A DNA stretch of 64,000 nt from Kitasatospora sp. SUK 42. GTDB lineage: Bacteria > Actinomycetota > Actinomycetes > Streptomycetales > Streptomycetaceae. The DNA lies in NCBI RefSeq assembly GCF_015776785.2, contig NZ_LFMD02000003.1, positions 459,798 to 523,797 of the forward strand. The letters run 5' to 3'. Below the pieces are notes generated by a model that saw nothing but the letters and a program-made list of their open reading frames with translations, ran no database searches and had not been told where the DNA came from. Shown here in pieces: positions 47,789-51,560 of this stretch (position 1 is the stretch's first letter; each line of letters begins with the position of its first letter). A program made the translations under genes and the position numbers.

Positions 47789-48655
47789 CTAGGACACCAC
47801 GTCCTTGCGCGCGAACCCGCGGAACGCCAGCGCCAGCAGCACCACCGCGTACGACAGCGACAGCGAGACGCCCTGCAGCATGCCGCCCCACTCCAACTGC
47901 GGCTGCAGGGCGTCCGCCCACGAGTACTGCCAGTGCGCCGGCAGCCACTCCCGCAGGTCGCCGAGCGCCGTGACCGCCTCCAGCACCCCGGTGAGGATCG
48001 ACGCGAACACCGCCCCGCCGACCGCCCCCAGCGGCGCGTCCGTCACCGTCGACAGCCAGAACGCCAGCGCCGCGATCACGATCTCGCTCAGGAACACGAA
48101 CACCACCGCGATCGCGAGCCTGGGCAGCGCCTCCCCGGCCGACAGGCTCATCCCGGCGGGCAGCTTGAGGTCCCCCCACCCGTACGCCGCCGTCCCCACG
48201 ACCAGCCCGATCGCCGGCAGCATGATCACCGCCACCGCCGAGAACGCCAGCCCGACCGCGAACTTGCGGGCCAGCAGCCGCGCCCTCGGCACCGGCGCGG
48301 CCAGCAGGTACCGCAGCGAGGACCAGCTGGCCTCCGAGGCGACGGTGTCCCCGCAGAACAGCGCGACCGGGATCACCAGGATGAAACCGGTGCCCATGAA
48401 CAGCATGGTGGCCGCGAAGTTGGGCCCCGAGGCGGTGGCCAACTCGATGAAGGTGGTCCGGTTCTGGCGGCTGGGGGTGCCGCCGATCTGGAACGCGGCC
48501 AGGATGATGAGCGGCATCGTCGCCAGCACCGCGCCGATCACCAGCGTGCGGCGCCTGCGCAGCTGCCGCATCGCCTCCACGCGCAGCGGGAGCGTCCGGC
48601 CCACCCGGTACCCCTGCGCGTGATCGGCCGAAGTCGCCGAAGTCACCGAACTCAC
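47789..48655 (-). CDS. ABC transporter permease
   Basis: The 288-aa protein has six membrane segments, beginning after a basic cytoplasmic part (RVEAMRQLRRRRTLVIGAVLATMPLIILAAFQIGG). The extended VALFCGDTVASEASWSSLRYLLAAPVPRARLLARKF region is typical of ABC-2 family permeases. The GTG at 48655 overlaps the stop of the hydrolase-ABC gene as GTGA, so the two are translated together and probably form one transporter. Confidence 0.9.
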   Translation of the reverse strand: MSSVTSATSADHAQGYRVGRTLPLRVEAMRQLRRRRTLVIGAVLATMPLIILAAFQIGGTPSRQNRTTFIELATASGPNFAATMLFMGTGFILVIPVALFCGDTVASEASWSSLRYLLAAPVPRARLLARKFAVGLAFSAVAVIMLPAIGLVVGTAAYGWGDLKLPAGMSLSAGEALPRLAIAVVFVFLSEIVIAALAFWLSTVTDAPLGAVGGAVFASILTGVLEAVTALGDLREWLPAHWQYSWADALQPQLEWGGMLQGVSLSLSYAVVLLALAFRGFARKDVVS

Positions 48656-51432
48656 GCCGCACCACCTCCGATCAACGACAGGAACGCGTCCTCCAACCGC
48701 CGCTGCGGCCCGGCGCTCTCCACCGGCACCTCCAGCCGCACCAGCTCCGCCAGCAGCCCGCTCGCGGCGAGCCCGTCCAGCCGGACCAGCAGCCCGCCCT
48801 CGACGGCCTCCGCCGAGGCGACCCCGGCCAGCGCGCCCACCTTCCGGACCACCGGCTCCGGGTCGTACGAGTCGGCGAGCCCGATCATCAGCAGCTCACC
48901 GGCCCCGATGATCTCCCCGACCGGCCCGGCCGTCACCAGCCGCCCGCGGTCCATCACCACCAGGTCCGTACAGCTCTGCTCGACCTCGGACAGCAGGTGG
49001 CTCGACACGATGACGGTCCGTCCTCCGGCCGCGTAGCGGATCATCACCTCGCGCATCTCGCGGATCTGCGGCGGGTCCAGCCCGTTGGTCGGCTCGTCCA
49101 GGATCAGCAGGTCCGGCATCCCGAGCATCGCCTGCGCGATCGCGAGCCGCTGCCGCATGCCCTGCGAGTACGTCCGCACCGCGCGGTCCAGCGCCTCCCC
49201 GAGCCCGGCGATGGCCAGCGCCTCGTCGAAGTGCGCGTCGGCCTCCGGTCGGCCGGTCGCCTGCCAGTACAGCCGCAGGTTGGCCCGCCCGGTGAGGTGC
49301 GGCAGGAAGCCCGCGCCCTCGACGAAGGCCCCGACCCTCGACAGCACCGGCGTCCCGGGCCGCACCAGGTGCCCGAAGAGCCGGATCTCCCCCTCGTCCG
49401 GCCTGATCAGGCCCATCAGCATCCGCAGTGTGGTGGTCTTGCCCGCACCGTTCGGCCCGAGCAGGCCGAGCACCTGCCCCTGCTCCACCCGGAAGCTCAA
49501 CTCCCGTACGGCGTAGCGGTCCTGGGCTCCCTTGTAGCGCTTGCTCAGCCCGCTGATCTGCAACGGCACCCCGGCCAGCTCCGGATCGAACCCGGGCCCG
49601 CCGGCGGCCGAGCGCCGTCGCCGTACCAGCGGCACCAGCACCAGCCCGGCGGCCACCAGCACGGCCACCACCGGCAGCATCCAGGTCCGCGCGGGCAGCG
49701 GCGCCGACCCCGTGACCAGCTGCTCGACGGTCGGCACGGTGAGCGGCCCGGCCGGTGCGACCCGGTAGGTGGCCGGCTCGCCCGGCGAGGCGTACGCCAG
49801 GTCGGAGGAGGCCAGCACCAGCCGCACCCGGTGCCCGGCCGGGAAGCTGTGGTCCACCACGGGCAGCGCGACCGTCACCGTCTTCCCCGCGTCCGCGCCG
49901 GTCACCCGCAGCGGAGCGGCGAGCTGCTCCGGCAGCACCGCGTTGCCGTCCGGCCCGACGTCGTACAGCTTCGCGAACAGCACCGCGTCCGGCCGGTCCG
50001 CCGTCACCCTCACGGGCACCGTCGGCTGGCCGGTCAGGTTCAGCGGCCGGTCCAGCGGGGCGGAGTCGAAGGCGGCGTTCTGCCCCGGGAAGTCCAGCGA
50101 CAGTCCGACCCCGAGCGAGGCGGCCTGGCTGAGCGCGCCGATCCCCGGCACCGTCGAGATCCCCGGCGGCGAGCCGCCGGGCGGGTTGGCGAGGGCCTTC
50201 TCCCCGCCCGTCAGCTCGATCGAGCGCGTGGCCGTCCCGTCCAGCCCCGGGTACCGGTCGGCGGTCGCCTCGCGCAGCACGGCCTGGTAGCCGATCGAGT
50301 CGACACCGCCGCTCCTGGTCACCCGGAAGGCCGGCCCGGTGTCGTTCCCGCGCCCCTTCAGATAGTGGTCGAACCAGGCGGTCACCCGGTCGTCCACCCG
50401 CGCGCTGGTGTCCGTCCCGCCGTCGTGCCCGCCCGCGAACCAGTCCACCGCGACGGGCGCGCCGTTGGCCGCCACCGCCCGGGCGATCCGGTCGCCCTGG
50501 TCGAGCGGGAACAGCGAGTCCTGCTGCCCCTGCACCACCAGCGTGGGCGCCTTGAGCTGCGCCGCCACCGAGGACGGGCTCGACCGGTCCAGCAGCGCGA
50601 CGGCCTCCGGATCGGCGTGCCCGGTGGTCGCGACCCGGTCGTACATCTGGCAGAGCGACTCCAGGAACCGCCCGCAGCCGATCGGCCCGTCCGCGGCCGG
50701 AGCCTGCCCGCTCCCGCCGCGCGGCGCACCGCCCGAGGGCCCGAGGTTCCCGGCCGCGCCGGTGGTGAAGAAGATCCCGGCCCACAGCTTCTTGAACACG
50801 CCGTCGGCCGCACCGGAGCCCTGCACCCCTTGCGGGAACAGCGCGTCGGCCAGGTTCCACCAGGTGACCTGCGTCGCCACGGCGTCGATCCGGTGGTCGT
50901 ACGCGGAGGCCAGCAGCGAGATCGCCCCGCCGTACGAGGGGCCGGTGATGCCGACCCGGGGGTCGCCGGGCCCGTCGAGCTCCACCTCGGGCCGCTGGGC
51001 CAGCCAGTCCACCAGGTGCTTGACGTCCTCGACCTCGCGGTCCGGCGAGTTCAGGCCGATCTTGCCGCCCGAGTGCCCGAAGCCGCGCGCCGACCAGGTC
51101 AGCACCGCGTAGCCCTGCCGGGCGAGCTGCTGGGCGCGGTCGTGCTGGCCCTCCTTGGAGCCGCCGAAGCCGTGCGCGAGCAGCACCGCCGGCCGCGGGG
51201 TGGTGCCGGTGGTGAAGAACGAGGTGTCCAGTTGCACCTGCTGGGAGCTGCCGGGCGTCTCCGGCATGCTGAGGAAACGATCCTCCTGGCGGACCGTCTG
51301 CTCACCGCCGGACGCCACCGCCACCGTGCCCGTACCGGCGACCACCACCAGGGCCACCGCACCGGCCAGAACCCTCCGCCGCATCGACGCGCCCCGGCCG
51401 CGCCAGCGGCGCCATGCCCCACCGATCCCCAT
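48652..51432 (-). CDS. Exported CocE/S15-type hydrolase fused to an ABC ATPase
   Basis: This 926-aa protein joins two functions. A signal-anchor helix (about 20-40) leads to an alpha/beta hydrolase of the X-Pro dipeptidyl-peptidase/CocE type: LLAHGFGGSKEG near 84, nucleophile Ser166 in GITGPSYGGA, Asp305 in QGQQDSLFP and His336 in AGGHDGG, then the CocE-type jelly-roll (SFPAGHRVRLVLASSDLAYASPGE near 530-550). A second membrane helix (584-603) ends in RRRR and is followed by a complete ABC ATPase: Walker A GPNGAGKTT near 659-667, signature YSQGMRQRL, Walker B LLILDEPTNGLDP and SSHLLSEVEQ. The hydrolase thus lies outside and the ATPase inside. TACGAT ends 8 nt before the ATG. Its permease follows with a GTGA overlap. 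Confidence 0.88.
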   Translation of the reverse strand: MGIGGAWRRWRGRGASMRRRVLAGAVALVVVAGTGTVAVASGGEQTVRQEDRFLSMPETPGSSQQVQLDTSFFTTGTTPRPAVLLAHGFGGSKEGQHDRAQQLARQGYAVLTWSARGFGHSGGKIGLNSPDREVEDVKHLVDWLAQRPEVELDGPGDPRVGITGPSYGGAISLLASAYDHRIDAVATQVTWWNLADALFPQGVQGSGAADGVFKKLWAGIFFTTGAAGNLGPSGGAPRGGSGQAPAADGPIGCGRFLESLCQMYDRVATTGHADPEAVALLDRSSPSSVAAQLKAPTLVVQGQQDSLFPLDQGDRIARAVAANGAPVAVDWFAGGHDGGTDTSARVDDRVTAWFDHYLKGRGNDTGPAFRVTRSGGVDSIGYQAVLREATADRYPGLDGTATRSIELTGGEKALANPPGGSPPGISTVPGIGALSQAASLGVGLSLDFPGQNAAFDSAPLDRPLNLTGQPTVPVRVTADRPDAVLFAKLYDVGPDGNAVLPEQLAAPLRVTGADAGKTVTVALPVVDHSFPAGHRVRLVLASSDLAYASPGEPATYRVAPAGPLTVPTVEQLVTGSAPLPARTWMLPVVAVLVAAGLVLVPLVRRRRSAAGGPGFDPELAGVPLQISGLSKRYKGAQDRYAVRELSFRVEQGQVLGLLGPNGAGKTTTLRMLMGLIRPDEGEIRLFGHLVRPGTPVLSRVGAFVEGAGFLPHLTGRANLRLYWQATGRPEADAHFDEALAIAGLGEALDRAVRTYSQGMRQRLAIAQAMLGMPDLLILDEPTNGLDPPQIREMREVMIRYAAGGRTVIVSSHLLSEVEQSCTDLVVMDRGRLVTAGPVGEIIGAGELLMIGLADSYDPEPVVRKVGALAGVASAEAVEGGLLVRLDGLAASGLLAELVRLEVPVESAGPQRRLEDAFLSLIGGGAA

Positions 51433-51560
51433 GAGAGTTGATCGTATCCGCCGCACCGGTAGGCGTCCGATAAAGCCGCCATTCCCTTTCGTCCGGTTCA
51501 CCCCGTAAAACGCCGGTATCGTACGGCACACCCGGCTCCCCCGAACCCGAGAAGGTCCCC

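Follow-up and report, generated by a model that had tools for sequence, protein, structure and literature searches.

In ATP-binding cassette (ABC) exporters made of separate subunits, the ATPases are normally cytoplasmic proteins. In the PCAT (C39) transporters, a cytosolic cysteine protease is fused to the transmembrane chain, and in FtsEX the peptidoglycan hydrolase forms a chain of its own that binds through FtsX. We analyzed a stretch of 64,000 nucleotides from Kitasatospora sp. SUK 42 (contig NZ_LFMD02000003.1, positions 459,798–523,797), hereafter the window, in which a gene on the minus strand encodes a CocE-type hydrolase, predicted to be extracytoplasmic, fused through a transmembrane helix to an ABC ATPase, and the following gene encodes an ABC-2 type permease (table 1). 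Like the DrrAB, NosFY, and ABCA-type exporters, this pair combines an ATPase carrying the full motif set with a separate ABC-2 permease, but the matched entries, according to their molecule names only, mention no enzyme tethered to the ATPase. As in PCAT transporters, a putative exporter is fused to a hydrolase able to process cargo; however, the hydrolase is here a serine enzyme, predicted on the other side of the membrane and joined to the ATPase chain. The pair shares with FtsEX a cytoplasmic ATPase, a membrane partner, and an extracytoplasmic hydrolase but differs in having hydrolase and ATPase in one chain. We found no report of this architecture or its role in the open-licence literature, as judged by titles and abstract openings, in agreement with the first-pass annotation of the window, which knew of no characterized member.

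The fusion gene extends from ATG 51432 to the TGA at 48654–48652, 926 codons without any internal stop. Three Pfam domains, all exceeding their cut-offs, follow one another: Peptidase_S15 (residues 77–308; 72.8 bits, cut-off 23), PepX_C (446–553; 62.6 bits, cut-off 22.5), and ABC_tran (643–783). The hydrolase half also matches the NCBIfam model CocE_NonD (TIGR00976; 95 bits vs. a cut-off of 66.3). Hydropathy reveals only two hydrophobic segments (21–39 and 585–603), and the ATPase motifs are found at residues 659–667 (Walker A), 755–759 (signature), 775–781 (Walker B), and H812. The open frame, the Pfam and NCBIfam matches, the hydropathy, and the motifs bear out the initial description of a 926-residue frame with a signal anchor, a Ser-Asp-His hydrolase with a CocE-type jelly-roll, a transmembrane helix, and a full ABC ATPase. 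A chance reading frame is ruled out by the domain matches, among other checks. Among 141 paralogue matches in the same genome, nearly all to the ATPase half, there is one full-length copy.

Table 1. Features of the fusion–permease locus (positions in the window)
Feature	Position	Strand	Remarks
Conserved promoter-like block (TTTATCGGACGCCTACC ... TACGAT)	51441..51474	-	Ends 8 nt before ATG
Fusion gene, 926 aa: predicted extracytoplasmic CocE-type hydrolase, transmembrane helix, cytoplasmic ABC ATPase	48652..51432	-	Open frame; Pfam/NCBIfam
N-terminal hydrophobic helix, signal anchor (residues 21–39)	51316..51372	-	Hydropathy; helix 6–40 in predicted model
Alpha/beta hydrolase domain and cap (residues 48–360)	50353..51291	-	Triad S166, D305, H336; HGFGG 87–91; Cys pair C253/C261
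PepX_C-type jelly-roll (about residues 400–570)	49723..50235	-	PepX_C match 446–553; beta strands in model; PaL/CocE fold match over whole length
Second transmembrane helix (residues 585–603), then basic stop-transfer	49624..49680	-	Hydrophobic in 81/81 rows
ABC ATPase domain (residues 620–842), full motif set	48907..49575	-	Pfam; motif alignment
C-terminal ATPase extension (residues 843–926)	48655..48906	-	Unrecognized in some relatives
ABC-2 type permease, 288 aa, six predicted helices	47789..48655	-	4-nt overlap with fusion stop; ABC-2 family matches

The integrity of this long frame was examined in relatives from public genome contigs. In the 80 nearest loci, which are the best 80 of 506 confirmed candidates and belong mainly to Kitasatospora and Streptomyces, the fusion is always a single open frame (80/80). 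The permease gene comes directly after it in 79 of them, and the contig of the remaining one (L082) ends before that point. When these loci are aligned with the window fusion (81 rows), the triad, Walker A, signature, Walker B, and H-loop are intact in every row. In a wider set of 65 rows (11 of 75 fused frames had been removed as duplicates), the Walker lysine and Y167, the residue after the catalytic serine, are kept throughout, and the triad in 64; the sole exception is frameshifted. Against eight close relatives, the ratio of nonsynonymous to synonymous substitution rates (Ka/Ks) ranges from 0.19 to 0.45 for the hydrolase and from 0.14 to 0.25 for the ATPase; by this measure, both halves are under purifying selection.

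The first-pass annotation had envisaged that the frame might join two genes, which would appear split in close relatives, or that the triad might be missing from all relatives. No gene is split among the 80 nearest loci, and a sequencing artefact joining two genes is ruled out by the single frame found there and in the wider regions. A degenerate hydrolase is likewise ruled out by the kept triad and the Ka/Ks values. The only broken fusion among the regions read is that of L198 (4159–7328), whose hydrolase is spread over two frames near profile positions 176–177. This frameshift lies within the hydrolase half, not at the domain junction, and may reflect a sequencing error or a pseudogene. A stop is also present in a few other matches of the class search (e.g., G661 and G489).

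The hydrolase half is predicted to lie outside the cytoplasmic membrane. Two hydrophobic segments are present in 81/81 rows, and the stretch after the second is mostly basic (mean net charge +2.2, minimum 0); the literal RRRR first proposed as the stop-transfer signal is not conserved. The cysteine pair C253/C261 is found in at least 79 of the 81 rows, in 62/62 rows of another set, and, for each cysteine, in 63 of the 65 rows of the wider set. Furthermore, three terminal CWB2 cell-wall-binding repeats are carried by the hydrolase-only relatives L141 (6310–9270), L152 (6271–8916), and L153 (6137–8689), that is, by three of the eight scanned, as another architecture of the same enzyme family. 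The two helices, the charge, the cysteine pair, and the repeats on relatives together place the enzyme outside.

The AlphaFold2 model of the hydrolase has a good core, with a mean predicted local distance difference test (pLDDT) score of 78.5 and a predicted template modeling (pTM) score of 0.79. Its top solved match by sequence profile, Foldseek, and structural alignment is PaL, deposited as "Lipase" and which we take to be a lipase of Pseudomonas alcaligenes. PaL (PDB 8YZN/8YZO) ranks at the top of 1000 chains aligned to the model (Z 29.3; root mean square deviation 3.4 over 436 residues, 26% identity), the cocaine esterase reaching a Z of about 24.5. The fusion hydrolase and PaL share an alpha/beta hydrolase followed by a jelly-roll, a DSLFP motif around the catalytic aspartate, and SYG at the serine, but the deposited PaL chain, of 505 residues, has no ATPase. 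The cocaine esterase/Peptidase S15 family (CocE/NonD) is matched above its cut-off and has the same fold over the whole hydrolase; the fusion differs from it by the attached ABC ATPase and by HGFGG (87–91, including F89) near the expected oxyanion hole, and proline specificity is not indicated. The oxyanion-hole tyrosine of CocE is Tyr44. Substrate cannot be proven by fold similarity; an ester is nevertheless favored over a proline peptide, since the nearest solved structure by both profile and fold is the PaL lipase and the family match is CocE/NonD. Of the two substrates first suggested, the ester thus gains support, whereas nothing in the evidence gathered here points to proline peptides beyond the Pfam names.

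The permease start, GTG 48655, shares the tetranucleotide GTGA with the fusion stop codon, as initially described, and of the 79 loci with the permease on their contig, 77 offer a start that overlaps in this way (ATGA or GTGA). The protein shows six hydrophobic segments and matches ABC2_membrane_2 of Pfam (44.1 bits, cut-off 27.2), and a phmmer search against solved structures (E up to 1) returned no relatives. For the ATPase, the best solved matches are the ABCA lipid exporters (ABCA3, A7, A4, and A1), followed by NosF and, further down, Rv1218c; the best-scoring NCBIfam models are DrrA and lantibiotic protection, both under their cut-offs. The first-pass annotation had left open whether the substrate is exported or arriving. 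Export is favored because the permease is of the ABC-2 type and no substrate-binding protein recurs beside the fusion.

The sequences compared show both sets of active-site motifs, the topology signals, and the pairing with the permease, all of them conserved; what we infer is a 2+2 assembly, export as the direction, ester chemistry, and a substrate common to the enzyme and the pump. The two genes would encode one ABC-2 exporter (DrrAB/NosFY/ABCA-like), probably made of two fusion and two permease chains. The transmembrane helix would tie each ATPase to a serine esterase at the outer face, so that two esterases would sit above the outlet of the permease. As the paired ATPases bind and hydrolyze ATP, a lipophilic substrate would be driven through the membrane; on its emergence, an ester or acyl group on it would be cut by the tethered esterase, leading to release of the substrate or to irreversible export. 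We give about an even chance to such a single ABC-2 exporter, whose ATPase bears its own outside esterase acting on the substrate as it emerges. Of the transporter with a tethered substrate-processing enzyme proposed at first sight, the architecture, topology signals, and constant permease are well supported, and a single transporter bearing an enzyme on its outer face would be the best reading.

The raw list of open reading frames (ORFs) places the fusion start at GTG 51531. We prefer ATG 51432, since this methionine is aligned in 18/18 relatives compared and a promoter-like block lies just upstream. The TACGAT of this block is located 7–8 nt 5' of the ATG in 14 of these relatives, and such proximity suggests that the fusion transcript may be leaderless.

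The distribution of the system was explored in Actinomycetota genomes and, beyond the phylum, in plasmid records. Searched with the hydrolase half at E up to 1e-40, 61 genomes gave matches in 42. These comprise 37 of 37 in the same genus (own included), all in open frames of at least 915 aa, 4 of 15 from elsewhere in the order, and 1 of 9 from the class. Even samples gave matches in 43 of 396 genomes at the level of the phylum (E up to 1e-30) and in 132 of 394 at that of the class (E up to 1e-35); all these genome counts take in hydrolase-only relatives and hence are not counts of fusions. Wider regions were then read from the match lists, a nonrandom choice. The first 20 are divided into ten with fusion and permease and ten with a hydrolase devoid of both. 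The 26 short loci L157–L182 are all fused, with the permease visible in 25 and the contig of L173 ending before it. Among 21 further regions (L183–L203), 16 encode fusion and permease (the frameshifted L198 included), three a hydrolase alone, and one fusion and one hydrolase are cut by a contig end. Six genomes of 1.3–1.9 Mb hold the pair (L183–L188; 6/6 loci read), and the small genomes without a hydrolase match in the class sample include G055 (1.4 Mb). Plasmid records yielded three hits, all from Actinomycetota; in Tsukamurella tyrosinosolvens (L203, 5911–9170), fusion and permease are carried by a 386-kb plasmid. Profile coverage stops at about 305 or about 230 depending on the locus, and the C-terminal ATPase extension is unrecognized in relatives including L183–L188 and L203.

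A version split into three genes (hydrolase, ATPase, and permease) was seen in none of the ten plus three (L199, L200, and L201) hydrolase-only regions. A weak double ABC match was obtained near L148, in a separate frame some 1.1 kb away from the hydrolase; L193 stops at a contig edge. In the ATPase tree, the 60 fused rows form one side of a branch (support 100/99) facing 14 unfused ATPases from the genome of the window; in the hydrolase tree, a quick version, the 60 fused rows likewise stand apart from 12 hydrolase-only relatives, with a Shimodaira–Hasegawa-like approximate likelihood ratio test (SH-aLRT) support of 96. Five fused rows (L133, L198, L189, L128, and L173) were left out of the trees, as were, on the hydrolase-only side, L193, L201, the rows of loci numbered below L137, and matches no longer than 250 residues. 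A single origin of the fusion is favored by these trees but not proven, because outgroups are limited and the fully searched ATPase tree carries a warning about long branches for part of the unfused rows.

The pair is flanked in the window by an mscS-like gene, followed further out by lspA and ileS, on one side and by a gene of the major facilitator superfamily (MFS) on the other. This setting recurs in many Kitasatospora loci and in none of L057–L107, which have other flanking genes. In 35 loci chosen for spread, no genes but fusion and permease occur every time. The association with a permease neighbor, which the first-pass annotation proposed looking for across actinobacteria, was recovered there as in the nearest loci; the other large gene clusters seem to be shadow frames of the pair itself. 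Many overlapping permeases were overlooked by the gene caller (41/80 loci clustered), and our permease counts rest on direct reading of the loci. Across groups, no gene besides the permease recurs beside the fusion, hence no substrate-binding protein. In some Streptomyces loci, the pair adjoins genes that, from their sequence, we take to be related to inositol catabolism. Neighbors in the small genomes include copper-monooxygenase-like, DUF305, and arginase genes. A divergent copper type II monooxygenase-like gene adjoins the fusion in L183 (4208–5314), L184 (7661–8767; assigned by sequence likeness only), and L186 (2333–3457).

Several points weigh against an exporter with its own outside esterase. 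A tether is by itself no proof that enzyme and pump share a substrate, and the neighbors, lacking any conserved substrate or biosynthetic gene, offer no independent pointer to the cargo. The system is missing from some genomes: no match came from at least four of the same family (class sample), from 11 of the 15 others of the order, or from 8 of the 9 of the class, and the ten hydrolase-only regions among the first 20 show that relatives exist without an ABC partner. In the permease, the predicted outside loop 229–259 (conservation 0.85) is about as conserved as the helices (0.74–0.88) and would fit hydrolase docking; yet the two other outside loops are less conserved (0.75 and 0.77) and the cytoplasmic loops more (0.91 and 0.93), and conserved cytoplasmic loops are the pattern of any ABC permease. 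Domain placing in the full-length model is unreliable because the model is moderate (pLDDT 73.7, pTM 0.58).

The direct helix link between hydrolase and ATPase in the rows compared, the absence of a biosynthetic neighbor, and the cell-wall-binding domains on some hydrolase-only relatives would also suit an FtsEX-like control, in which ATPase and permease move no solute and ATP-driven motion switches the outside hydrolase acting on an envelope ester or peptide. We consider this unlikely: the permease matches ABC-2 transporter families, and the connection, one helix plus a linker of some 18 residues, may be too loose for force transmission. A role in self-protection or detoxification, with a drug-efflux pump of the DrrAB or Rv1218c type and an esterase inactivating the expelled compound, would be in line with the DrrA and lantibiotic-protection scores, though these are below cut-offs, with Rv1218c among the solved matches, and with an alpha/beta fold common to puromycin hydrolases. 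One would expect a more scattered occurrence of a resistance cassette than that of a hydrolase half found in 37/37 same-genus genomes and of a pair kept, with varying neighbors, in six genomes of 1.3–1.9 Mb, and this weakens an explanation that we regard as rather improbable.

Scavenging is very improbable in our view, as the permease is of the ABC-2 type and no substrate-binding protein recurs: the tethered esterase would split esters of the environment and the pair would take up the acids or alcohols so freed, which could explain the retention of the pair in small genomes and the inositol-catabolism-like genes beside it in some Streptomyces. We lend hardly any credence to an accidental fusion in which the hydrolase is a passenger unlinked to transport. 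Hydrolase-only relatives do live without an ABC partner, but each of the two domain trees unites the fused rows, the regions read include no trio of separate genes, and constraint acts on hydrolase and ATPase alike.

Turning back to the exporter with its own outside esterase, the matches in 37/37 same-genus genomes and the pair in six genomes smaller than 2 Mb speak for a basic function in envelope or metabolite traffic. It is possible to overlook the transporter half, since one named relative, the fusion of Tsukamurella L203, is annotated only as "alpha/beta fold hydrolase" next to an "ABC transporter permease". More tentatively, these loci may represent an old, phylum-wide class of ABC exporters in which a membrane-crossing ATPase bears an enzyme that processes or traps the cargo, the ATP cycle and ester hydrolysis outside being mechanically linked in one polypeptide. 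A widely conserved family with a membrane-spanning ATPase and an intact-looking outside esterase would constitute a new coupling of export to cargo processing.

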